DNA of 64,000 nt from Methanomicrobiales archaeon HGW-Methanomicrobiales-1 (GTDB lineage Archaea > Halobacteriota > Methanomicrobia > Methanomicrobiales > Methanospirillaceae). Positions 1,058 through 12,812 of this stretch are shown piece by piece. Position 1 is the first letter of the stretch. Every line of letters starts with the position of its first letter. The notes below the pieces were generated by a model. It was given only the letters and a program-made list of their open reading frames with translations, had not been told where the DNA came from and did not search any database. Made by a program: the position numbers and the translations under genes. The stretch spans positions 362,683-426,682 of the forward strand of contig PGYM01000001.1 in the NCBI GenBank assembly GCA_002839675.1. The letters are read 5' to 3'.

Positions 1058-2212
1058 TCACCCTCCAATAACTACATTCATGATTGCAAGCAGGAAATCG
1101 CCAAAGACAATGCCGGTGATGAGCCCGGCGGTGATCGGGATGATGAAGGGCACTGCATAGGAGATCCAGACCGTGCCGGCTTTTTTATAGATTGCCAGTT
1201 CTGTGGTAAACTCTTCGGGATGTTCCCGGAGATCCTTGGTGTAAATACGGCCCTCGGCTGCATACATCCTCCGGATAGAGTCAAAAAAGCCGATAAATTT
1301 CCGGCTGACAACACCTTTCTTCTCCTCGAAATCTTCCATGACAAATCCCCATTCATGCTGGATGGTCTCGCCCTGTACGGGAAAGCCGAAGAACATGTAC
1401 ATCAGCGGGGCACGGTTTCCCCGGATGATATTGATCAAAAAGATCCCCAGCGGTGCTACGAGGTTGAGCAGCAGGGCGTTGATCAGGACCGTAAATGCAA
1501 GGAACCCCAGCGGGGTATTTCCCAGCAGCGGTGTGAACGGGAAGGTCGGGACGCAGAACGCGATAAAGATAAGCGCCCAGGCATCCGCTCCCCCGAAGAG
1601 ATGCATCCTGCCAAAGAGATAGAACACCCCGCAGAAGACGGCCGGGAGCAGGATAAAGAATGCCGGTGTTCCCCAGGCTCCGGAAAAGAGGAGCTGGACT
1701 GAGGTTATTGCCAGGATAACAACGATCAGGATGAAATACCACCGGTGGAATGCCTCCTCAACATTGGCTTCCCGCACTTTCCGTTTCGGCCGGATCTTTC
1801 CTTCCGGTTTCTGTTTCCAGGTAGCGTAGGAAATGTACCCAAAAATCCCGGCAAACATCGCGTACCAGGGTACCAGGGACAGGTTGAACGGTGAAGGCAG
1901 TACCAGCCATGCCAGTGCCGGCAGGGCAAGGGTGACGGCAAGGTATTCGAACCGAAATCGTTCACCGGGCTCATGGCTGTCGAGATAATTGGTGTAAAAG
2001 AAACTCACGATCAGCGTCAGGTATCCTGCAATGAGACTGTAATTCCCTGTTTTTATATACAGGAGCCAGACCGATGCGGGAATTCCGATAATGAGCATGG
2101 GATACCATGTCTTGAATGGCACCCGTCGGTCCTTGATGTCGAGATACGAGGCATAGATCAGGGTGGCCAGAACCGCAACCGCCGAGATCACCATCGGGTA
2201 CAAGAGTTCCAT
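1058..2212 (-). CDS. A24-family preflagellin/prepilin-type peptidase
   Basis: This is a polytopic membrane aspartyl protease of the FlaK/EppA/PibD type, which cleaves class III signal peptides of archaellins and type IV pilins. The two catalytic aspartates are apparent at D25 (YLDIKDRRVP) and D210 in FGGAD, the archaeal version of the GxGD motif. About eight hydrophobic segments are visible, and a basic loop (RPKRKVRE, about 141-148) lies between the catalytic halves. At 384 residues it is longer than the roughly 230 of FlaK because of extra membrane segments after the second aspartate. I chose ATG 2212 because the in-frame TTG at 2272 adds an unlikely basic, Cys-containing leader. Its location just upstream of a pilus-motor locus suggests it matures those pilins, but no pilin gene is in the window. 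Confidence 0.8.
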   Translation of the reverse strand: MELLYPMVISAVAVLATLIYASYLDIKDRRVPFKTWYPMLIIGIPASVWLLYIKTGNYSLIAGYLTLIVSFFYTNYLDSHEPGERFRFEYLAVTLALPALAWLVLPSPFNLSLVPWYAMFAGIFGYISYATWKQKPEGKIRPKRKVREANVEEAFHRWYFILIVVILAITSVQLLFSGAWGTPAFFILLPAVFCGVFYLFGRMHLFGGADAWALIFIAFCVPTFPFTPLLGNTPLGFLAFTVLINALLLNLVAPLGIFLINIIRGNRAPLMYMFFGFPVQGETIQHEWGFVMEDFEEKKGVVSRKFIGFFDSIRRMYAAEGRIYTKDLREHPEEFTTELAIYKKAGTVWISYAVPFIIPITAGLITGIVFGDFLLAIMNVVIGG

Positions 2213-2279
2213 AAATTCATTACATGCTTTTTTTTCAGAGCACTTATGTATGGCGCTGGTAAAAAAGGGCAATTGCGCA

Positions 2280-2380: not shown

Positions 2381-2992
2381 ATGAAAATCCAGGATATGAT
2401 AGATACACTCCTCAAGGGATCTTCTCCCTTGGGGTCATTCCCGCTCCCTGAACTGATCGGGTTTGCAGAAAAGGGTGGCATCAACGGCATAGCTGCTGCA
2501 AAAGAGAACGAGAAACTGCAGTATCTTGCAATCCTTGCCGGAGAACCTGAAGGTGCCATTTTCATCGATGAAAAGGGGACCCTCTATGGCGATAAGGCAG
2601 TGATGCTGTTTACGGATAATGAATCGTTTACCCTGTATGATGTCAATCCCGACCTGGTAGATGCGGTGGTTGCCGGGTGCCGTATCTTTGAAAAGTCCCA
2701 CATGAAAAAGAGGGACAGCTATGAACTTCCGGAGTTCGGCAAAAAAAATGCCGGGCTGGGCGTGTTCACCCTGACTATCCGGAGGGAAAATGAACCCCAG
2801 AACGGGGTCCGGGTCTCCCTGCGGAAAGACGGCAAGGTTGTTGGCAGCGATGTAACCACCGGGGATGGCAGCGTCGGCTTTAAGCTGGTGCACGGGAAGT
2901 ACGATGTGATTGTCCAGGACCGCAACCAGCAGCTCACCACGTTTCATGTACAGTTCGAAGAGTCCAGTTCGCAGAAAGTCCTGCAACTGTAA
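2381..2992 (+). CDS. Unknown protein: DUF2226-like N-terminus plus carboxypeptidase-regulatory-like beta domain
   Basis: Not recognised as a named family. Residues 1-105 show an alternating beta pattern, GEPEGAIFIDEKGTLYGD followed by a Phe-Thr-Leu-Tyr-Asp-Val strand, that resembles the DUF2226/DUF4388-type domains encoded at 6177 and 7529. Residues about 130-203 look like a CarboxypepD_reg or Ig-like beta sandwich, with NGVRVSLRKDGKVVGSDVTT then a GSVGF turn and a KYDVIVQDRNQ strand. There is no signal peptide or membrane segment, so it is probably cytoplasmic. It sits between the peptidase and the V4R/Cache sensor and shares a domain type with the cluster downstream, which suggests a related role. 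Confidence 0.6.
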   Translation: MKIQDMIDTLLKGSSPLGSFPLPELIGFAEKGGINGIAAAKENEKLQYLAILAGEPEGAIFIDEKGTLYGDKAVMLFTDNESFTLYDVNPDLVDAVVAGCRIFEKSHMKKRDSYELPEFGKKNAGLGVFTLTIRRENEPQNGVRVSLRKDGKVVGSDVTTGDGSVGFKLVHGKYDVIVQDRNQQLTTFHVQFEESSSQKVLQL

Positions 2993-3103: not shown

Positions 3104-4669
3104 ATGAAGATCGGACGTGAAGATTTCGAGGCGCTCATGAAGGGGGACAAAACGATCGCCCCGTATATTGAGCTCGATCCCCTTGCCGGTTCGTACTCGG
3201 TTTTTGGCGTAAAAACTGCAAGCAACCCGAATTATCTCATAAAAGCCATCTACGAGATGTACGAAGCGAACCTCAACAAGAAACTCGCGGTTAAGGCTGT
3301 TCGCAAGCTCTTCCGTTCGGTTGGTGCCGGGTCTGTCGGGCTCAATAATATGTTAAAAAAGCAGGGTATGGAATTAAAACCGGCAGAGTTTCTTATGCTG
3401 GTTTTTAAGCTGCAGCACCAGCAGGGCTGGGGTGCCCCGTTTGAGCTGATCGAGGCGAGCGAGAAGAGGATCGTGCTCCGGTGCAAACAGACCTTTGAGT
3501 CCGAGGTGCTCAAGGACTGGAACATGCCGGTATGCGGGCTCCATCAGGGATGGATCGAGGGGGTCCTCATGGCGGTAACCGGCAAGTCGTGGTTCTGCCT
3601 TGAGAAGAGCTGCCACGCGAAAGGTGACCCGTACTGTGAGTTCGTTGCTGACCAGGTCTCTCCGAGCTGGAAGTACAAAGCAGAAGCGGTTGTCAAGGGC
3701 GAATCTGCGATCACGGAATTTATCGAGCACAAGCCGCTCGAAGGCAAGATATCTCTCATGGATGAACCGGTCGTCATGATGCCCCGTTTCATCTTCACGT
3801 CCATGACCCAGTCGCTGAAAAAGACGATGGGAGAAGCGCCGGCAAGCGGTGTCAACTACCGTGCCTACATGGATATGGGCAAGGAGAATGTCGAGCACTA
3901 CAGGAAGATGAGTATCTCGTATGACCTCTCCAGGACTAAACTTGACAAGGATCTCAACGAGCTGCACAAACGTTTCGCAGCATACGGGACTCCTTTGGTT
4001 TCCGGAGGCCAGATTGCTTATGGCGGCCATATCGTCAACAATAACTTCGAGGTTGTTGATTCCATTGAAAAGGAGATGGGCAGCAAGGCCACCGTCTTCC
4101 AGAAAGTTGGTGATAAGGCAATCCGTGTATCTACCAACGTTGTTGGCGCTGACGGCAAGAGGGCTGTCGGGACCGAGATTTCAAGTGTAGTCTACGATGC
4201 CGTGATCAACAAAGGGCAAACCTATTACGGCACTGCAGATGTGGTTGGTAAAAAGTATGTCGTGGCGTATGAGCCAATCAGGAATCCTGCAGGTGAGATC
4301 ATCGGTATCCTTTTTGTCGGAATTCCTGAAGACACGGTCTACGGCCCGTTAATGGAAGAGAAACTTAAAAAGATCAATCCCAAGACCATCTGCGACATGG
4401 CGTTTGCCTTCTACTCCCAGATGGGCTGGTTCAATATCGTCAAGGAAGAGTGGGATGAGAAGACCAAGACGAAGACCATTACGCTCTCCCACACGGTCGA
4501 ATCCGAATCCTTCGGAAACACCGGTAAGAACGTCTGTTACTGCACGGCCGGCCTGCTTGCTGGTATCATCGAGGGATCGTTTGGTATCCGGGTACAGGGA
4601 CGCGAGATCAAGTGCCGGTCAAAAGGTGATGAGCACTGCGTCTTTACCATCACCAACAAACCAGAATAA
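3104..4669 (+). CDS. Soluble V4R-Cache-V4R sensor protein
   Basis: A 521-residue protein with two V4R (4-vinyl-reductase, small-molecule binding) domains. The first spans about 40-182 and ends in the Cys-rich signature around C165, C170 and C178 (AKGDPYCEF). The second ends at about 516 with the matching RSKGDEHCVFTI. Between them, at about 310-412, lies a Cache-like sensor domain ending PIRNPAGEIIGILFVGIPE. The helices at 225-275 resemble the start of a V4R domain, so Cache may be inserted inside the second V4R rather than beside it. There is no membrane segment, unusual for a Cache domain. No output domain is present, so it probably acts through partner binding. Function unknown. Confidence 0.75.
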   Translation: MKIGREDFEALMKGDKTIAPYIELDPLAGSYSVFGVKTASNPNYLIKAIYEMYEANLNKKLAVKAVRKLFRSVGAGSVGLNNMLKKQGMELKPAEFLMLVFKLQHQQGWGAPFELIEASEKRIVLRCKQTFESEVLKDWNMPVCGLHQGWIEGVLMAVTGKSWFCLEKSCHAKGDPYCEFVADQVSPSWKYKAEAVVKGESAITEFIEHKPLEGKISLMDEPVVMMPRFIFTSMTQSLKKTMGEAPASGVNYRAYMDMGKENVEHYRKMSISYDLSRTKLDKDLNELHKRFAAYGTPLVSGGQIAYGGHIVNNNFEVVDSIEKEMGSKATVFQKVGDKAIRVSTNVVGADGKRAVGTEISSVVYDAVINKGQTYYGTADVVGKKYVVAYEPIRNPAGEIIGILFVGIPEDTVYGPLMEEKLKKINPKTICDMAFAFYSQMGWFNIVKEEWDEKTKTKTITLSHTVESESFGNTGKNVCYCTAGLLAGIIEGSFGIRVQGREIKCRSKGDEHCVFTITNKPE

Positions 4670-4714: not shown

Positions 4715-5509
4715 TTACGCTTCCGGTTTTTTCTTAAAAAGAGCTTTTGAGAACCGGTCAATGAACCCTTCTTTCTTGACAACAACGACCTCTTCTTCAT
4801 AGGCAACCCCAACCAGGTCGGATGCTATGCGCCTGATTGCCTTTGATGCCGGAGAATCAGGGAACTTGAGGACGATCGGGACTTTTGCCGAGGAAGCCCG
4901 GCGCACGTTGGGGTCTTCGGGTATAACCCCGAGCACTTTAACCCCGAGCACTTTTTCCATCTTTTTTATGACGATATCTGACTTGTCCTGATCGACACGG
5001 TTGATGATCGAACCGAGCACGTGTCCGCCCACTACTTCAGTCAGGATTTTGGTCTTGAGTGCATCAACAATAGAGGAAAGTTCAGGGTTTACCACGAGAA
5101 TTACTTCGTCGGCAACGGCAAGCGGGACAACACCATCCTTGCTGATGCCGGCAGGTGCATCGATCAACAGGAACTCGCAGCGTTTTACAATCTCGCCCAT
5201 CACGTCGCGGATCTTGTTCGGGTCGGCTTCCTGGAATCCTTGGAGTGAGATACCGCTCGGGATTACCTTGAGCCCGGCCGGACCCTCGTAGATTGCATCG
5301 TTGACATTGCATTTGCCTGCAAGAACTTCATGCAGGGTGACCGGGGCATCCTGCAGGCCAATGATAAGGCCTACATTTGCCATGCCGATATCAGCGTCCA
5401 TCAGGTAGGTTTCTTTACCGAGCTGGGCAAGCATGGTACCGAGATTGACAGAAACAGTGGTCTTTCCTGTTCCTCCTTTCCCAGAAGCGATCGTGTAAAC
5501 CTTGACCAT
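4715..5509 (-). CDS. minD: MinD/ParA-type ATPase
   Basis: A 264-residue deviant Walker-A ATPase. The P-loop KGGTGKTT at residues 11-18 carries the signature lysine K11, followed by DADIGMANVG (38-46) and LLIDAPAGI as switch II. Archaeal MinD proteins position cell-surface or division machinery; in haloarchaea MinD4 affects archaella and chemosensory-array placement. The C-terminus (FIDRFSKALFKKKPEA) is a basic amphipathic stretch like the membrane-targeting helix of MinD. It is the last of three minus-strand genes next to roadblock proteins and a pilus motor, so a role in placing that motor is plausible but inferred. The paralogue number cannot be decided from sequence alone. Confidence 0.9.
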   Translation of the reverse strand: MVKVYTIASGKGGTGKTTVSVNLGTMLAQLGKETYLMDADIGMANVGLIIGLQDAPVTLHEVLAGKCNVNDAIYEGPAGLKVIPSGISLQGFQEADPNKIRDVMGEIVKRCEFLLIDAPAGISKDGVVPLAVADEVILVVNPELSSIVDALKTKILTEVVGGHVLGSIINRVDQDKSDIVIKKMEKVLGVKVLGVIPEDPNVRRASSAKVPIVLKFPDSPASKAIRRIASDLVGVAYEEEVVVVKKEGFIDRFSKALFKKKPEA

Positions 5510-5542
5510 CGAACACCCTATGGTGATAGGTATTTCTATTGC

Positions 5543-5554
5543 ATTTATATAAGA
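5543..5554 (-). promoter_or_regulatory. TATA box of minD
   Basis: Read on the minus strand, this is CTTATATAAATG, 34-45 bases before the minD start at 5509. That spacing puts transcription initiation about 10 bases upstream of the ATG. minD can therefore probably be transcribed on its own as well as from the upstream genes. Confidence 0.5.
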
Positions 5555-5578
5555 TTACCCAATTACTCTACCTTTGTT

Positions 5579-6154
5579 TTATATCCACCAGTTTAAAACA
5601 ACTTGCGTATCTGCGGCGATCTGCTGTATGACCTCGTTTTTGAGCGGAGTTTTTGCCCTGACAATGCCGACCAGGTCCGATCCTTTATGCGTTATGCCAA
5701 ACAGGCTCACGCCCGGTGTCCTGGCAAGCGGATCGCTTTTGAATATCCCACTGTAGGTTGCAGCATCCACTAAAGCGGTATCTCCGCCGGATGACCCAAA
5801 GAGAAGGCCATCACCCGTTGCGATGGTAAAATTGTTCAGGGAATATTTTTGGGCAAGTGCAGTCAGACTTTCGGTTAAGTCCTGGCGGTTACTGGTGAGA
5901 TCGATATTTTTTGGTTTTGGCACCTCAGTCGTCCCGTCACCGTCCGCAGATTTCACCGGGGGCTGGATCGCGGAAACGGTTTTTGATTTCGGCTGGTAAT
6001 CGAGGGGGTGGCGAACATGGGGTGACGTGTCTGTATCCCTTATAAGAGAGATCCGTGTTTTGGATCGTTTCCGGAACAGCACTATGGCGATAACCGCAAC
6101 AAGGGCAATACCGATGATCACTGCCGGCACAAGCCAACCGGTCAAGGTGTCCAT
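5579..6154 (-). CDS. Membrane-anchored roadblock-like protein
   Basis: A 191-residue protein with one N-terminal transmembrane helix (about 7-27) followed by a basic stop-transfer FRKRSK, a Ser/Pro/Lys-rich linker (about 30-80), and a C-terminal alpha/beta domain (about 88-191). That domain contains DLTESLTALAQKYSLNNFTI and GDGLLFGSSGGDTALVDAAT, which match the strand-helix pattern of roadblock/LC7 domains (the MglB family). It starts 22 bases after the end of the DUF2226-like gene and precedes minD. The topology puts the roadblock-like domain in the cytoplasm. Identification is by pattern only. Confidence 0.55.
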   Translation of the reverse strand: MDTLTGWLVPAVIIGIALVAVIAIVLFRKRSKTRISLIRDTDTSPHVRHPLDYQPKSKTVSAIQPPVKSADGDGTTEVPKPKNIDLTSNRQDLTESLTALAQKYSLNNFTIATGDGLLFGSSGGDTALVDAATYSGIFKSDPLARTPGVSLFGITHKGSDLVGIVRAKTPLKNEVIQQIAADTQVVLNWWI

Positions 6155-6176
6155 GTTATGCTTTCACCTCTCCCCA

Positions 6177-6917
6177 TCATCGTTCCATCAGGTGCTCGAG
6201 CTGCAACTGTTTGATCATGGTCTTGCAGTCCGTGCGGATCTTATCGGTCATATGGTCGATGTCGAGCGTTTCGAAGGTGTCGATATCCTTTTCAAAACTG
6301 CTTGAATCCTCGGAAGTCTCATCCGTTTCAGCAGGCTTTTTTTGTTCCTGAAGGTGAACCGCGATCGGGGCCACAGGTGTCGGAGGATTTTTGGCAGTGA
6401 TTGGCTGTGCCGGGGTGTGTGCAGCTGGTTTTGTGGTTACTGTGGGCAGGGGGGGAACCACAACGCGTATTGTCGGTACTACGCGTGGATGTGCAGGCAG
6501 GGTCTTGTCCGCTTTTACCGGTGGTGCAATGGGTTTTCCTGCAGGTCCGGAGTGGTTAACTGCCGAAGGTTGCTGTGGCTGGTGTGTTGCTGCCGGGGCT
6601 GTTTTTGCGGCTTTGATGACATGGCTTGTCTTGTTAAATTCGAGGGCAAGCCGGATCTGTGCTTCATCCATACTCGAAAGTGCAACATCTGCTTTCTGGC
6701 CGCTCATCTTCTGGATCTCTTCCCATGCCGGATCACCCTGTTTTTGGTCGATCTTTGCAAGTATGCAGGTACCGGATTTAAAGACAATCGTCCCGCCGAC
6801 CGACCCGGATGAGACCGTGCAGATCCCGGAAAATTTTGTATGCGTAAGCTCATCGAGGATAGAACTGATCAGTTCACTTTTTTTGATTTTAAGAAAAGTA
6901 CCCCTCGGGAGTTGCAT
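6177..6917 (-). CDS. DUF2226-like protein with Pro-rich linker and C-terminal helix
   Basis: A 246-residue protein in three parts. Residues 1-105 contain KSELISSILDELTHTKFSG and a SGSVGGTIVFKSG strand, which fit the archaeal DUF2226 family, related in appearance to DUF4388/PATAN signalling domains. Residues about 106-195 are a Pro/Ala/Thr-rich linker with little order. The last 40 residues form an acidic then helical tail (TLDIDHMTDKIRTDCKTMI). No catalytic motif is visible. It heads the minus-strand cluster with a roadblock-like protein and MinD and diverges from the roadblock protein at 7160, so it is probably part of the same module. Exact function unknown. Confidence 0.65.
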   Translation of the reverse strand: MQLPRGTFLKIKKSELISSILDELTHTKFSGICTVSSGSVGGTIVFKSGTCILAKIDQKQGDPAWEEIQKMSGQKADVALSSMDEAQIRLALEFNKTSHVIKAAKTAPAATHQPQQPSAVNHSGPAGKPIAPPVKADKTLPAHPRVVPTIRVVVPPLPTVTTKPAAHTPAQPITAKNPPTPVAPIAVHLQEQKKPAETDETSEDSSSFEKDIDTFETLDIDHMTDKIRTDCKTMIKQLQLEHLMER

Positions 6918-7159
6918 TATATTCTAATGTAATTGGACTCGTGTATATAGTTTCTTTTCGTTCACCACCACCGGTTACGTACTGTAGTATATCGGTTATT
7001 ATCCTCAGAACCGGATACCCGGAATTGCAGCCATCCGGAAAAACCAAAAAAAATGTATTTTTTAGTCAAAACTGTCCATTTTACAGTGAAAGAGGGATAA
7101 AAGCCCAACCTATTAATAGAACAAAAAACAAGAGAATTTATTTATTAGATGGTGAACGT

Positions 7160-7507
7160 ATGCTAAAACCATTATTGGAAGAATTCTTAAAAGTCGAAGG
7201 GGTTTCAGCTGCAGTTGTGGTTGGAAGGGATGGGTTTGTAATAGAAAGTGCTGTTTCCGGGAAGGTCGATATCGAAGCACTGGGTGCAATGGCTTCAACC
7301 GGGCTGGGCACTTCCGAAGCAATGGGCAGTACGCTGGGGAAAGGAGAGCTTCTCCAGATGCTTGTCGAGCTGGAAAAAGGACCCATTATTCTCTCCCCGC
7401 TTTCCAGCGATGAATTGATTGCTATCGTTGCAGATACGACATCCAACGTGGGAAGGATCCGGTACGAGTTAAAGAAAAATAAAGAACGTATCGTTGCTGC
7501 ACTCTGA
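7160..7507 (+). CDS. Roadblock/LC7 domain protein (MglB-like)
   Basis: A 115-residue single-domain protein with the classic roadblock pattern: a helix (LLEEFLKVEGVSAAVVV) then GRDGFVIES, an alanine-rich GAMASTGLGTSEAMG helix and the GPIILSPL strand. Such dimers in bacteria (MglB) act as GTPase-activating partners of small Ras-like GTPases that control pilus polarity; archaeal members are mostly uncharacterised. I chose ATG 7160 rather than the longer open frame because a GGTGA ribosome site precedes it and the upstream part has no family features. It is 21 bases upstream of the DUF2226-roadblock fusion. No MglA-like GTPase gene is seen in the window. Confidence 0.8.
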   Translation: MLKPLLEEFLKVEGVSAAVVVGRDGFVIESAVSGKVDIEALGAMASTGLGTSEAMGSTLGKGELLQMLVELEKGPIILSPLSSDELIAIVADTTSNVGRIRYELKKNKERIVAAL

Positions 7508-7528
7508 TCAACCCTTAATATTCTTTTT

Positions 7529-8251
7529 ATGAACTTACCTGCAGGAACCGACGGTGGAACGATAACAAATCCTCAGGAAGAGGGGTTGATCCCGTACCTT
7601 ATGGCATTCCGCGGGGCAATAGAGATCGAGACCAGCGAAGGTCATGGATTTATCCTTACCGAGAATGGCAAACTCAAAGCCGCATATTTTAAAAGCGGTG
7701 AGAACACCTCCCGCGGAAAGGAAGCCCTCTCGTACCTGATGGCGGATTCACCGGAATCCGGGTCGAATCAGACGTTTAACTTAAGAAAATACAGCGATGA
7801 TGAGTTCAACCGGGCATTAACCATTGCAAACGACGAGAACCTGTTGCTCCCGGTCCCCCCTCCGAAACCTGCAGTACGGCGTGAAGCAGATCCTGATCCC
7901 GATCCCGCAATGCCGGTGCTTCTGGACGAGAATAGTCTCAGGAAAATAGCCAGCCAGCCCGGCGTTATTGCAGTTTCAGCATTTTTTGAAGGTTTTCCTG
8001 TCCAGTCTATGGGCGATGCCGATTTTGAGCATGTTGCCGCCCTGGCAGAAGATCTCATGCGGGCTGGTGCGAAGATCGCACAGGAAATGAAGGTCGGAGA
8101 CCTGGACCAGCTGATCCTGGAGACTGCAGAAAATAAATTTATTATCGCGCCCTGTGGGGATCTCTTCCTCTGTGTTTTTACCACATCGGATGCCCAGCTC
8201 GGGCTTATCCGGGTTGTCCTTAAAAGCATCCAGGCCGAAATTGCCGTTTGA
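7529..8251 (+). CDS. DUF2226-like / roadblock fusion protein
   Basis: A 240-residue protein joining the two domain types seen separately nearby. Residues 15-105 (GLIPYLMAFRGAIEIET, HGFILTENGKLKAAYFKSG) resemble the DUF2226-like domain. Residues about 130-240, starting DENSLRKIASQPGVIAVSAF, resemble a roadblock domain and include EHVAALAEDLMRAG and a FIIAPCGDLFLCVF strand. A proline-rich linker (VPPPKP) with a DPDPDP repeat separates them. The fusion supports a working link between the stand-alone DUF2226-like and roadblock proteins. It lies between the free roadblock gene and the pilus ATPase gene on the same strand. Confidence 0.65.
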   Translation: MNLPAGTDGGTITNPQEEGLIPYLMAFRGAIEIETSEGHGFILTENGKLKAAYFKSGENTSRGKEALSYLMADSPESGSNQTFNLRKYSDDEFNRALTIANDENLLLPVPPPKPAVRREADPDPDPAMPVLLDENSLRKIASQPGVIAVSAFFEGFPVQSMGDADFEHVAALAEDLMRAGAKIAQEMKVGDLDQLILETAENKFIIAPCGDLFLCVFTTSDAQLGLIRVVLKSIQAEIAV

Positions 8252-8409
8252 TACTGGTTGGTGGAAAAAAAGCATAGGATCTTGCTTATTCAACTATTCT
8301 GTCAAGAATTTCTTCAACTTACATTCCACAGAGTAGATATACTTATAGGCAAAATTATCATTTAGCCTGCTCTATGCAAATAGTATAAAATAATCCATCA
8401 ATCAAGGTG

Positions 8410-10773
8410 ATGTCTGGATTGAACAAAGATACCGACGAAATCCTGGACGATAACAACTCGCTTTTAAAGATGATCGGCGGGATTAAGAAAAAGGAGGAGC
8501 AACCGGAGGAGCCCCCCCGGCTCCCTGATACGGAGCCCGCTCCCTCATCCGCCCCTGTGGGTAAAGGCGCGGCAGAACCGGGTGATTTTTCGGAACTGCT
8601 CAAAAAACTGGGGATGGAAAAAAATAAGTCATCCTCTGCGTCTCAAGAGCCCCCGGCACCAGCAGCCCCGGAGCAACCGGATGAAGTGCCTGCTTTTGAT
8701 TTTGATGACCTGCTCGAAGACATTCCGCAACCTCCGGAGACACCGGCCCCTTCCTCTCCCGTGCTGGAATCAGCATCATCCCGCTCCTCCCCTGAAAAAG
8801 AACCCGTGTCCCCTGCCGAACAGGAAGAAGAACCCTTTGTCGAGATTATTAATGAAGATCCCAAGGCGGCACTCCGGAAAAATCCTGCCCGGAAAGTGAC
8901 CCCGTCACCCTCCCCGGCTGCATCAAAAGAGACCGAATATGACGAAAAGATCATTTCCGTTGACCAGATCACCGATTTCTCGGGTCTTATCCTTCCCAAA
9001 GGCGCCACGTTCCGGGTTGACGAGATCAATCTCCACGGGAGAATTAATTCATTCGAGAGTACCGGAACCAGTGCCCTGCCACAAGAGTTTGCCGAGATCT
9101 GGAAGCGGGAATTTTCTACCGCCGGCTTCAAGGATCTCGATATAAATGGGGAGATCGAGATTGCCCGGGAAAAAATCAGGGCCGAACCAAAGAAGTTCAG
9201 TTTCTCCTCCCTGTTCAAGGCAATCATATCCGAGCAGGAGGCATACGATCCCAAGATACACGGCCCCCTTGTTGACCTTTCTTTCCAGCCAAAAACCGGT
9301 ATTGAAGAGATGGAGATGTACCCGGTCAATGAGCCCTTTGCCTACATCCGTATCACGTACGATCACTCAACCCACGAGTACACCTACAATGTGCTCGAAC
9401 CGATCCTCACCGATGCCGAAAAAGACTTGTTAGTCGAGCTGAAAGAACGCCTCTTCGATACGCTCGATATCAATACCAAAGACATCACCAAGGAAGAAGC
9501 CCGGCGCAAACTCCGGGTATCTGCCGATGATATCATCAGCGATTTCGGGATCAAACTCGCCCCGGAGCAACGCGAGAAGATTCACTATAATATGTACAAG
9601 GATTTCCTTGGCGACGGTTTGATCGATCCCATCATGCACGACAAATATATTGAGGATATTTCGTGCGATGGCGTCAATGTTTCCCTGTTTGCATTCCATG
9701 CCAGCTACGAGTCGATGAAGACAACGCTTTCCTATTCCAATGCCAGTGAACTGGATTCGTTCGTCACCAAGCTTGCCCAGCGGGCTGGAAAGTACATATC
9801 GATTGCAGAGCCGATTCTCGATGCCACCATGCAGGATGGTTCCCGTATCCAGATGACCCTGGGACAGGAAGTTACCGCCCATGGATCAACGTTCACCATC
9901 CGTAAGTTCAAGGATGAACCCATCACCCCCACAGATCTCATTGAATGGCGCACTTTCTCGCCGCTTGCGATTGCGTATATCTGGTTGTGCGTCGAGAACG
10001 GCAAATCTGCAATATTTGCCGGGGGAACTGCATCAGGAAAGACAACGGCTCTCAATGCCATCTCCCTGTTTATTCCACCCATGTCTAAGATCGTCACCCT
10101 GGAAGATACCCGTGAAGTGAAGCTGCCCCACCCGAACTGGATCCCAAGCGTAACCCGGGATTCGTTTGATTCGGCTGGGCGGGGTGAGATCAACATGTAC
10201 GAACTGTTGCGTGCTGCAATGCGACAGCGTCCTGAATATATCATCGTGGGTGAAGTTCGTGGCAAGGAATGCCAGACACTCTTCCAGGCGATGAGTACCG
10301 GCCATATCACCTATTCCACAACGCACGCGGATTCTGTTGCCAGTGTCGTGCACCGTATAGAAAACCCGCCAATGGACGTGCCGCGGAACATGCTCTCGGC
10401 ACTGGACTTCATCGCAATCCAGGTGCAGGCCCGGGTCGGCGGAAAGCGTATCCGGCGGAACAAACAGATCGTTGAGATTCTCGATATCGACCCGCGAACC
10501 AATGAACTGATCACCAATGAGGTGTTCAAGTGGCGGTCAGCAACCGACGAGCACTCCTATTCCGGGAAATCCTACCTTCTTGAAGAGATTATGGAAGCAA
10601 AGGGATGGGACGAGACCCGGATGCGCGAGGAACTCAAGCGCCGCCAGGAAGTGCTTGAATGGATGAGGATCAAGAAAATACGCCACTATAAAGACGTGGC
10701 AAAGATCCTCATCTCCTATCATCGCGATCCCGAAGCGGTTGTTGAGAAAGTGAGGAAGGACCTCTATGAATAG
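8410..10773 (+). CDS. Type IV pilus/archaellum-type secretion ATPase (FlaI/TadA family)
   Basis: A hexameric ATPase of the type II/IV secretion superfamily that powers pilin or archaellin assembly. The Walker A motif GGTASGKTT is near residue 538, the Asp box DTREVKLPHPNW near 562, Walker B YIIVGEVRG near 612, and the His box STGHITYSTTHA near 636. Residues 1-180 are a Pro/Glu/Ser-rich, probably disordered extension not seen in short FlaI. Start choice is open: GTG 8407, ATG 8410 and TTG 8419 are in frame, and the AAGGTGA ribosome site at 8404-8410 best fits TTG 8419. The two downstream FlaJ-like genes make a motor-platform operon. No pilin, archaellin or FlaH gene is adjacent, so pilus versus archaellum is undecided; a pilus is likelier. 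Confidence 0.9.
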   Translation: MSGLNKDTDEILDDNNSLLKMIGGIKKKEEQPEEPPRLPDTEPAPSSAPVGKGAAEPGDFSELLKKLGMEKNKSSSASQEPPAPAAPEQPDEVPAFDFDDLLEDIPQPPETPAPSSPVLESASSRSSPEKEPVSPAEQEEEPFVEIINEDPKAALRKNPARKVTPSPSPAASKETEYDEKIISVDQITDFSGLILPKGATFRVDEINLHGRINSFESTGTSALPQEFAEIWKREFSTAGFKDLDINGEIEIAREKIRAEPKKFSFSSLFKAIISEQEAYDPKIHGPLVDLSFQPKTGIEEMEMYPVNEPFAYIRITYDHSTHEYTYNVLEPILTDAEKDLLVELKERLFDTLDINTKDITKEEARRKLRVSADDIISDFGIKLAPEQREKIHYNMYKDFLGDGLIDPIMHDKYIEDISCDGVNVSLFAFHASYESMKTTLSYSNASELDSFVTKLAQRAGKYISIAEPILDATMQDGSRIQMTLGQEVTAHGSTFTIRKFKDEPITPTDLIEWRTFSPLAIAYIWLCVENGKSAIFAGGTASGKTTALNAISLFIPPMSKIVTLEDTREVKLPHPNWIPSVTRDSFDSAGRGEINMYELLRAAMRQRPEYIIVGEVRGKECQTLFQAMSTGHITYSTTHADSVASVVHRIENPPMDVPRNMLSALDFIAIQVQARVGGKRIRRNKQIVEILDIDPRTNELITNEVFKWRSATDEHSYSGKSYLLEEIMEAKGWDETRMREELKRRQEVLEWMRIKKIRHYKDVAKILISYHRDPEAVVEKVRKDLYE

Positions 10774-11689
10774 CTTTGAGCGGTTCTGCTTCAACCTGCT
10801 CGGCAAACGGATGAAGGAGAAGCGCGAGGAGTACGCCCAGCTCAGAAACGATCTCATATCAGCCCGATTCAAGACCTCATTCGAGGCATACCTGTCCACT
10901 GCTTTTGTCAGCTCTATTATTGTCGGGTTCTGTGCAGCGGTAGTAATCGGTCTCTTTACCTGGATCTTAAAACTCCCTACTTTAATCAAGTATAAGGGAG
11001 CCGTGCCCGGCCCGCTGGTTGCCCTGTCCGCTCACAGCCTTGTCCTTGGAACGATATTCATTACGGTCTTCTCCCTTCTGGTATTCGGCGGGCTGACGTA
11101 CGTGGCATTCATCATGTATCCCAGTCTTGAGGCCGGGAACCGGCAGAGGAATATCGATGCCACCTTACCCTATGCAATCAATTACGTCACCTCAATGTCC
11201 ACTGCCGGGATCACTCCAGCCGAGGTTTTCCGGTTGCTGGGGGACAGTCCCATTTATGGACAGAGTGCTGTTGAGGCCCGGTATGTAGCCCGTGAGATTG
11301 ATATATTTGGCCGTGATCTGATCGATGCGCTCCGGCTCGTATCATCTACCACACCCAGCAAGCGGATGAAGGAATTCTTACAGGGTGCCATGGCGAGTAT
11401 CTCGAGCGGGGGTAACCTGACGGATTATTTCCGGACAAAGGCCGACCAGTATGCTCTCGAGAACCGGCAGACACAGAAACTGTTCCTGGACACTCTCGGA
11501 TTGATCGCAGAATCGTATGTTACGGCAATGGTTGCCGGCACGCTGTTTTTGATTATCCTGCAGTCTATTATGTCGGTGCTTTCCGGGGATAACAAGCCGA
11601 TGTTTTTGTATGCGGTAGTCTACATTATGATCCCTCTCGGGAGTATCGCGTTTGTAGTTATGATCAGTTCCATGACACCGGAGACCTGA
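10766..11689 (+). CDS. FlaJ/TadC-type pilus platform membrane protein, half 1
   Basis: A 307-residue type II secretion F-domain protein. Two hydrophobic segments lie near 36-64 and 92-120, then a cytoplasmic helical T2SSF domain with ATLPYAINYVTSMSTAGITP and MKEFLQGAMASISSGGNL, and two final membrane segments near 247-271 and 278-304. These proteins form the membrane platform that couples to the ATPase. The ATG overlaps the end of the ATPase gene by 8 bases, indicating coupled translation. Archaeal FlaJ is usually about 550 residues with two F domains; here each half is a separate gene. Confidence 0.85.
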   Translation: MNSFERFCFNLLGKRMKEKREEYAQLRNDLISARFKTSFEAYLSTAFVSSIIVGFCAAVVIGLFTWILKLPTLIKYKGAVPGPLVALSAHSLVLGTIFITVFSLLVFGGLTYVAFIMYPSLEAGNRQRNIDATLPYAINYVTSMSTAGITPAEVFRLLGDSPIYGQSAVEARYVAREIDIFGRDLIDALRLVSSTTPSKRMKEFLQGAMASISSGGNLTDYFRTKADQYALENRQTQKLFLDTLGLIAESYVTAMVAGTLFLIILQSIMSVLSGDNKPMFLYAVVYIMIPLGSIAFVVMISSMTPET

Positions 11690-11690
11690 A

Positions 11691-12812
11691 ATGGGAATCA
11701 AGGATCGCATCAACACTATCGTACACCGTGACAGTGATACACCTCCCGCAGGTCTCCCGCAGGAAGTTAGTGCGGATACGGGCATAGGGAACCGGTTTAA
11801 GAAACTTTTTCACAGCGGCGGTTCCACCCCCCCGGCCGTAAAACCTGAAGAACTGAGTTCGGTAGAGACAGAATTCCAGGAGATCACAAAGAAACTTGAG
11901 CATGAACGCCAGACGCGGGAAGGCTTTGGAAAGTTCCTCAAACACCCGTTCCAGGTACTCCTGGAAAAACCGGTTAACATTCTTATCGTCTGCATTCCGC
12001 TGGCATTGATCGTGTTCATCGGCGGGTTTATTTTTAGTGTGCAAACCTATGGCATGCAGGTGCTCACCAAAGCCACAATTGTGGATGATTTTGCCGTTTT
12101 AGCGGTGATGATTGCGATCGTCCCCCTTGCCCTGCTTGATTTTAAGGAACAGAAGCGGGTTGTCAACCTTGAAAATGCTCTCCCGAACTTTTTCCGGGAC
12201 CTTGCCGGTATGAATGATTCAGGTATGACCCTGCCCAATGCAGTGCATCTTGTGGCTGCGGCGGAATACGGGGCACTCACCCCGCATATCAGAAAACTTG
12301 ACAATGAAATGTCCTGGGGTATTGGTTTTGTCGAAGCACTCTACCGGTTCGGTAAAAGCCTGGGAACCCCGCTGGCCGACCGGAGTGTCGACCTGATCGC
12401 AAAAGCGAGTAAGGCCGGGGGAGATGTGAGCGAAGTGCTGCGGGCTGCGGCAAAGGATACCTTTGAAGTGGTGAATCTCCAGCAGGAACGCAGTAACAAT
12501 ATGCTGATCTACGTGGTTATCGTCCTTGTTTCGTTTGCCGTGTTCCTGTTCGTTATTGCGATCCTGGTCACCTCATTCCTTTCGACGATGGCAACGGCTG
12601 GTGCTACCGCTGTTGCTTCCGGGGCAAAAGGTTTCGGGGGGATTATCGATATCTTTGTGTACAAGCGGCTCTTCTCGCACGCTGCCATGCTCCAGGGATT
12701 TTTCTCAGGGCTTGTCACCGGTGTGATGGGTGAAGGGCGTTTTATCTCCGGCCTGAAATACTCCGCTCTCATGCTCCTGATTGCCTGGATTACCTTCCGG
12801 TTCTTTATCTGA
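11691..12812 (+). CDS. FlaJ/TadC-type pilus platform membrane protein, half 2
   Basis: A 373-residue partner of the preceding gene, starting 1 base after its stop. A soluble N-terminal 95 residues precede membrane segments near 98-122 and 131-151, then a T2SSF domain containing LENALPNFFRDLAGMNDSG and SKAGGDVSEVLRAAAKDT, and C-terminal membrane segments near 280-310 and 357-373. The N-terminal extension is absent from half 1. It closes the pilus-motor operon, with a T-rich region following. The two halves probably act as a heteromer resembling a split FlaJ. Confidence 0.85.
   Translation: MGIKDRINTIVHRDSDTPPAGLPQEVSADTGIGNRFKKLFHSGGSTPPAVKPEELSSVETEFQEITKKLEHERQTREGFGKFLKHPFQVLLEKPVNILIVCIPLALIVFIGGFIFSVQTYGMQVLTKATIVDDFAVLAVMIAIVPLALLDFKEQKRVVNLENALPNFFRDLAGMNDSGMTLPNAVHLVAAAEYGALTPHIRKLDNEMSWGIGFVEALYRFGKSLGTPLADRSVDLIAKASKAGGDVSEVLRAAAKDTFEVVNLQQERSNNMLIYVVIVLVSFAVFLFVIAILVTSFLSTMATAGATAVASGAKGFGGIIDIFVYKRLFSHAAMLQGFFSGLVTGVMGEGRFISGLKYSALMLLIAWITFRFFI

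Follow-up and report, generated by a model that had tools for sequence, protein, structure and literature searches.

What do roadblock proteins and a MinD-type ATPase do beside the motor of an archaeal pilus? The question is raised by a locus of Methanomicrobiales archaeon HGW-Methanomicrobiales-1, located in a stretch of 64,000 nucleotides (contig PGYM01000001.1, positions 362,683 to 426,682), which is called the window here. Two sets of genes diverge at this locus. The minus strand carries a MinD/ParA-type ATPase (MinD, 4715..5509), a protein named TMRb (5579..6154) in which an N-terminal transmembrane helix and a low-confidence linker precede a C-terminal roadblock-like domain, and D4388 (6177..6917), a protein of 246 amino acids with a DUF4388/PATAN-like N-terminal domain, a proline-rich middle and a C-terminal motif. 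The plus strand carries the free roadblock/LC7 protein Rb1 (7160..7507; 115 amino acids), DRb (7529..8251), in which a PATAN/DUF2226-like domain is fused to a roadblock/LC7 domain, a PilB3-type assembly ATPase of type IV pili (T4P) with a long N-terminal extension (PilB, 8407..10773) and the first and second half of a TadC/FlaJ-type platform protein (10766..11689 and 11691..12812). A first-pass annotation had described these eight genes in two divergent sets, and an open reading frame listing together with family scans of the window confirmed all of them with their coordinates and strands. The explanation favoured here, although it is given somewhat less than an even chance, is that the locus encodes a polarity- or positioning-type control module placed between a redox or H2 input and the PilB3-type T4P motor.

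MinD reaches 321 bits against the NCBIfam family minD_arch (TIGR01969; E=4e-96; cut-off 201.75) and is thus an archaeal MinD. The ATPase matches T2SSE (E=5e-31) and PilB3_C (3e-7), and the two platform halves match T2SSF (E=2e-15 and E=2e-17); this combination, PilB3 domains on a T2SSE ATPase plus a pair of TadC genes, is that of an archaeal PilB3-type T4P motor. The pilins of archaeal T4P are often encoded away from the motor locus (PMC4858521). Rb1, whose conserved start codon is the ATG at 7160, and the C-terminus of DRb match Robl_LC7 (PF03259; E=2e-16 and E=6e-10) with 60.1 and 39.2 bits, both above the curated cut-off of 23. The top structure matches of a DRb AlphaFold model are roadblock proteins (E 2e-7), including Asgard roadblocks, Ragulator subunits and MglB. 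TMRb has no Pfam match and no roadblock support at the level of sequence. A TMRb profile built from 21 diverse sequences gave no signal against roadblock domains, real scores not exceeding those of shuffled controls, and for this reason its roadblock assignment comes solely from the AlphaFold model. There, a long helix (8-40) precedes a C-terminal domain with a pLDDT of about 90, and the best PDB matches are roadblock/LC7/MglB structures with marginal E values of 8e-4 to 1e-3 (3leq, E 8e-4, probability 1.00) and TM-scores of 0.5-0.64 on the target. Modelling thus recovers the proposed roadblock fold in the C-terminal domain of DRb and suggests one for that of the anchored protein.

A profile comparison shows the N-terminal domains of D4388 and DRb to be homologous (hhalign 96%, E 3e-9). 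DUF4388 (PF14332), which we take to cover the PATAN domain, is matched weakly by 21 of 30 D4388 homologues (best E 8e-4), the window protein itself scoring 15.3 bits, under the curated cut-off of 25. The corresponding domain of DRb reaches 13.1 bits against DUF2226 (PF09987; cut-off 22), and its DUF4388 match is also weak. The term DUF2226-like, originally applied to both proteins, thus retains a weak match in DRb, whereas D4388 appears to be better described by DUF4388, although the window protein remains below that cut-off too. An alignment of D4388 homologues reveals the conserved C-terminal motif ..KIRxxCKxxIKQLxLEHL. In two loci DRb is considerably longer (628-666 amino acids; L067:8411-10297 and L069:8337-10337), with several hundred residues between the PATAN-like and the roadblock domain, and in three others (L073, L087 and L103) it has lost the PATAN-like domain while D4388 retains one.

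The order D4388-TMRb-MinD, divergent from Rb1-DRb-PilB-TadC-TadC, is syntenic in ten Methanoregula-type contigs, parts being cut by contig ends in some and TMRb not being found in two; this gene arrangement is far beyond chance. Conservation within the set is highest for Rb1, with 90-99% identity among close relatives, above PilB and above MinD (82-93%), and the identities in Methanocellales amount to 63-64% for Rb1 and 57-60% for MinD. DRb is present in 98 of the 150 genomes of the order and in 26 of 35 genera. TMRb tracks DRb, as 82 of the genomes compared possess both and 8 neither; of the two cases that deviate, one is a fragment in the expected position, and in the other the contig stops at the locus. 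A conserved set together with the pilus motor, as proposed in the first-pass annotation, does exist and co-occurs in other genomes. Orthologues of the PilB motor were found in 145 of the 150 genomes, so that the motor is nearly universal and the roadblock module an optional extra. In the following, family 1 denotes the window's own Methanoregula-type family and families 2-6 other families of Methanomicrobiales. Family 6 has the arrangement A203-PilB-TadC (A203 being a protein of 203 amino acids) without roadblock genes, as have the pilus loci that families 2 and 5 keep apart from the module. A correlation of PilB N-terminal length with the module was considered and rejected, since open-frame lengths take in upstream sequence and the groups overlap.

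The neighbours of the module differ between families. In a table of 36 syntenic loci, Rb1-DRb lies directly 3' of an MvhG-MvhA-type [NiFe] hydrogenase in Methanocellales and in families 2-5. The motor does adjoin the set in family 1, as had been noted, but the set is not specific to pili, since it follows MvhGA in five other families. The gap between MvhA and Rb1 ranges from -7 to +4 nucleotides in Methanocellales and from -26 to +50 in families 2-5, with one exception of 208; in family 1 Rb1-DRb precedes PilB at 5-187 nucleotides. A single series of genes read in one direction joins the hydrogenase to the roadblocks and the motor in families 3, 4 and part of family 2, namely V4Rs-MvhG-MvhA-Rb1-DRb(-D4388-MinD where present)-A203-PilB-TadC, in which V4Rs is a small protein of the hydrogenase operon. 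The remaining loci of family 2, like those of family 5, show the order D4388-TMRb-MinD-V4Rs-MvhG-MvhA-Rb1-DRb, and a hydrogenase maturation protease is encoded 5' of D4388 in the loci of this order that were read (L061 and L066). In four Methanocellales loci (L137-L140) an extra protein of about 240-320 amino acids, which has no convincing Pfam match, is located between D4388 and MinD.

Both hydrogenase subunits match the Vhu/Mvh type. All 22 roadblock-linked MvhA sequences read have both Ni-binding motifs intact (RICGICP..H and DPC.SCATH), and the roadblock-linked MvhA carries a C-terminal extension. Each of the 14 genomes of families 2-5 tested contains exactly one MvhA, at the roadblock locus, and no MvhA was found in the tested genomes of families 1 and 6. 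MvhD and heterodisulfide reductase (Hdr) genes are missing beside MvhGA at the roadblock-linked loci. Methanocella genomes possess a second MvhGA, which is adjoined by Hdr and MvhD in the two loci with enough flank. As the FrhA outgroup was too distant to root an MvhA tree, orthology is based on synteny and identity. A hydrogenase large subunit of the window genome (C2:232003) was considered as a displaced roadblock-linked MvhA and ruled out; it belongs to an ordinary four-gene Frh cluster.

From these loci a second explanation can be drawn in which the hydrogenase is the centre: the roadblock, PATAN-like and MinD proteins would position or regulate MvhGA or its electron-transfer complex, the place beside PilB in family 1 would be a re-use, and the adjacency in families 3 and 4 would reflect shared transcription only. 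The hydrogenase would then be the client rather than the input, which is equally simple. In Methanocellales, the most distant relatives, the run includes the hydrogenase and lacks pilus genes, in three of their loci MvhA and Rb1 overlap by 7 nucleotides, and the sole MvhA of the tested family 2-5 genomes with its intact motifs and its extension fits such a role as well. However, family 1 has the whole module beside PilB in many genera without this hydrogenase, and Methanocellales own their separate Hdr-linked MvhGA without the module. Altogether this explanation is a serious competitor, albeit an unlikely one. The family 1 genomes, which kept module and motor and lost the hydrogenase, favour the pilus as the output.

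An MglA-type GTPase, the partner of roadblock proteins in Bacteria, is not encoded within the window's locus according to the open reading frame listing, and the remark that no MglA gene lies nearby is correct locally. Yet the same genome encodes a candidate on another contig (G000:C2:247341-247853), an MglA-like small GTPase of 171 amino acids beside the EF-2 gene (L097), whose G3 motif YGTPGQE is without the usual Asp and which matches Ras, Arf and MglA chains with E values of 1e-6 to 7e-5. It was found in 82 of 98 DRb-positive but in only 4 of 52 DRb-negative genomes, and leaving out family 6 in 82 of 98 versus 4 of 20, counts which are not phylogenetically independent. Group 4 MglA proteins of methanogens have been reported to lack conserved gene neighbours (Wuichet and Sogaard-Andersen; PMC4316618), and the module described here is a plausible partner for them. 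The GTPase bears on the model of the first-pass annotation, in which no such GTPase takes part and roadblock and DUF2226/PATAN proteins act directly on the pilus motor by tethering or gating it. This model agrees with the conserved direct order Rb1-DRb-PilB in family 1, with the lack of a GTPase gene in the locus and with several complete module-bearing genomes in which a close relative of the GTPase is missing; it is nevertheless improbable, given that the GTPase accompanies the module in most genomes and that the hydrogenase-linked loci speak against a motor-specific module.

The module is also moved and lost. A Methanoregula sublineage has lost Rb1, DRb and TMRb and kept MinD together with a 74-amino-acid peptide carrying the C-terminal motif of D4388, pointing to a contact between MinD and D4388. 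In families whose DRb is followed by D4388 and MinD, or has neither behind it, the trio D4388-TMRb-MinD occurs near rpoB, divergent from a second roadblock gene, to which three of the four loci read add a response regulator. The counterpart in the window genome retains MinD and, divergent from it, the second roadblock and two response regulators (L015:8530-11301 on G000:C1, some 27 kb upstream of the window). It adjoins RNA polymerase genes, its MinD is 61% identical to that of the window, and both response regulators consist of a receiver and MetOD2. Elsewhere, a paralogous Rb1-DRb-like pair, or a DRb-like protein alone, is encoded beside a two-helix HAMP membrane protein (L077-L082, L086, L064 and L074), with a response regulator behind the pair in at least one locus. 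Two loci of a family in the same phylum outside Methanomicrobiales and Methanocellales (L141 and L142) contain, side by side, two roadblock genes and a PATAN-like protein of 442-444 amino acids, and neither hydrogenase nor pilus genes. Moves between loci, losses and second pairs therefore characterize the module as a transferable unit with variable inputs. That the neighbourhood merely reflects vertical inheritance and shared promoters, with MinD as a general ATPase and no joint function, is very improbable, for although the flanking HisI, SUI1, CobQ and prepilin peptidase genes are likewise fixed in place, the module travels as a unit between MvhA, PilB and the rpoB region and is also lost as a unit.

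According to the favoured explanation of a control module between a redox or H2 input and the motor, Rb1 and DRb would form a heteromeric roadblock regulator, like MglB with MglC or RomY (for MglB and RomY see PMC9481161), which would act with the MglA-like GTPase whose gene lies outside the locus. DRb and D4388 may relay the state of this pair through their PATAN-like domains to a client, in the window presumably the PilB ATPase. For cyanobacteria the PATAN-CheY protein PixE is reported to bind PilB1 (PMC7690835), and PATAN proteins co-occur with SgmX, a regulator of Myxococcus xanthus T4P that recruits PilB (PMC11580455). TMRb would bring the complex to the membrane, and MinD, engaged via the conserved C-terminal motif of D4388, would set the place and time of assembly. 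As ancestral input the MvhGA-type hydrogenase and V4Rs, whose genes share the operon in Methanocellales and in further Methanomicrobiales, are proposed on the grounds of operon structure, so that the module may first have reported H2 or redox state. In family 1 the hydrogenase was lost; a V4R-Cache-V4R or response-regulator protein in the region would have taken its place, with pilus extension as the output. In its most specific form, the proposal names an Mvh-type [NiFe] hydrogenase as H2 or redox sensor controlling T4P assembly or placement and a Group 4 MglA-like GTPase as switch, the sensor having been swapped for V4R or response-regulator proteins in Methanoregulaceae; as a whole this must be regarded as rather doubtful.

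Several observations weigh against the favoured explanation. Rb1-DRb is located away from PilB in Methanocellales, family 5 and part of family 2. About 16% of the DRb-positive genomes, among them several complete ones of family 2, do not have the GTPase, which for this reason is not strictly required. V4Rs shows just a weak ATC_hydrolase match, and any relation to the V4R protein of the window is speculative. Finally, the genome counts lack phylogenetic independence, although the losses in family 1 are informative.

Three genes that precede MinD in window coordinates were overlooked in the original list of eight; two of them, A203 and a V4R-Cache-V4R gene, belong to the set, and a prepilin peptidase gene adjoins it. 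An archaeal prepilin peptidase of the A24 family (1058..2272, minus strand) matches Arc_PepC_II (E=1e-23) and Peptidase_A24 (E=6e-7) in Pfam; its position is conserved, and it is an ordinary neighbour of this T4P motor throughout the order. A203 (2381..2992, plus strand), a companion of this PilB without an assigned fold, has hidden Markov model matches in 27 loci of the initial set and is encoded directly 5' of PilB in other families, including family 6 without the roadblock set (adjoining PilB in L107, L108, L111-L117 and in loci of families 2, 3 and 4). The sensor-like V4R-Cache-V4R protein (3104..4669, plus strand; Pfam V4R in two stretches, E=7e-25; sCache_3_3, E=1e-35) is conserved within the locus across family 1, and many of its homologues are V4R-V4R proteins without Cache. 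In some Methanoregula (L098, L099, L101, L103 and L149) a receiver-PAS protein of 263-266 amino acids is found at or next to this position, which suggests a swapping of inputs. Scans of the window for sigma-70 promoters, a model not meaningful for Archaea, and for terminators gave results close to shuffled expectation, and the divergent intergenic region contains only short, unremarkable repeats.

A conserved set that adjoins the motor in family 1 and a hydrogenase in its relatives suggests that H2 or redox sensing may be tied to surface attachment. If this link holds, hydrogenotrophic methanogens may couple the availability of H2 to their attachment, and such a coupling, if true, would bear on their grip on syntrophic partners. 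Furthermore, an operon shared with roadblock and MinD genes questions a plain role as partner of heterodisulfide reductase for the F420-non-reducing hydrogenase of Methanomicrobiales and for one of the two Mvh hydrogenases of Methanocella. The two MvhGA copies of M. paludicola have been annotated as Mvh isozymes for heterodisulfide reductase (PMC3146512), and the single copy of Methanoculleus marisnigri as Mvh (PMC2686161). By type, copy number and map position the published Memar_1007-1008 and MCP_2492-2493 are probably the roadblock-linked subunits.

The association of roadblock (arCOG02603) and FleN/MinD (arCOG00589) proteins with archaeal T4P loci was published by Makarova et al. 2016 (PMC4858521). 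PATAN proteins near MglB genes were known as well (PMC4316618). No mention of a hydrogenase-roadblock link was found in the open-licence literature searched. The clade-2 (PilB3-type) T4P loci of Makarova et al. share the motor type and the two TadC genes with the window; the DRb fusion, the D4388-TMRb-MinD trio, the hydrogenase and the locus moves described here do not appear in their main text. The published MvhAG pairs were seen as Hdr-linked Mvh or as an isozyme, whereas here they stand with roadblock and MinD genes, and in Methanocella the roadblock-linked MvhGA is distinct from the Hdr-linked copy. With the cyanobacterial PATAN-CheY proteins PixE, PixG and LsiR the locus shares a PATAN-like domain beside an extension ATPase of T4P; in contrast to them, the domain is fused to a roadblock or a proline-rich tail instead of a receiver, and its DUF4388 match is below the cut-off. 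The closest parallel is the MglA/MglB system of M. xanthus with RomY, MglC and SgmX, which likewise comprises roadblock proteins, probably in heteromeric pairs, a link to the PilB extension ATPase and an MglA-like GTPase, present here in most genomes. The archaeal locus differs from it by having no GTPase gene in the locus and an archaeal PilB3/TadC motor, and it adds MinD, a membrane-anchored roadblock-like protein and a hydrogenase.

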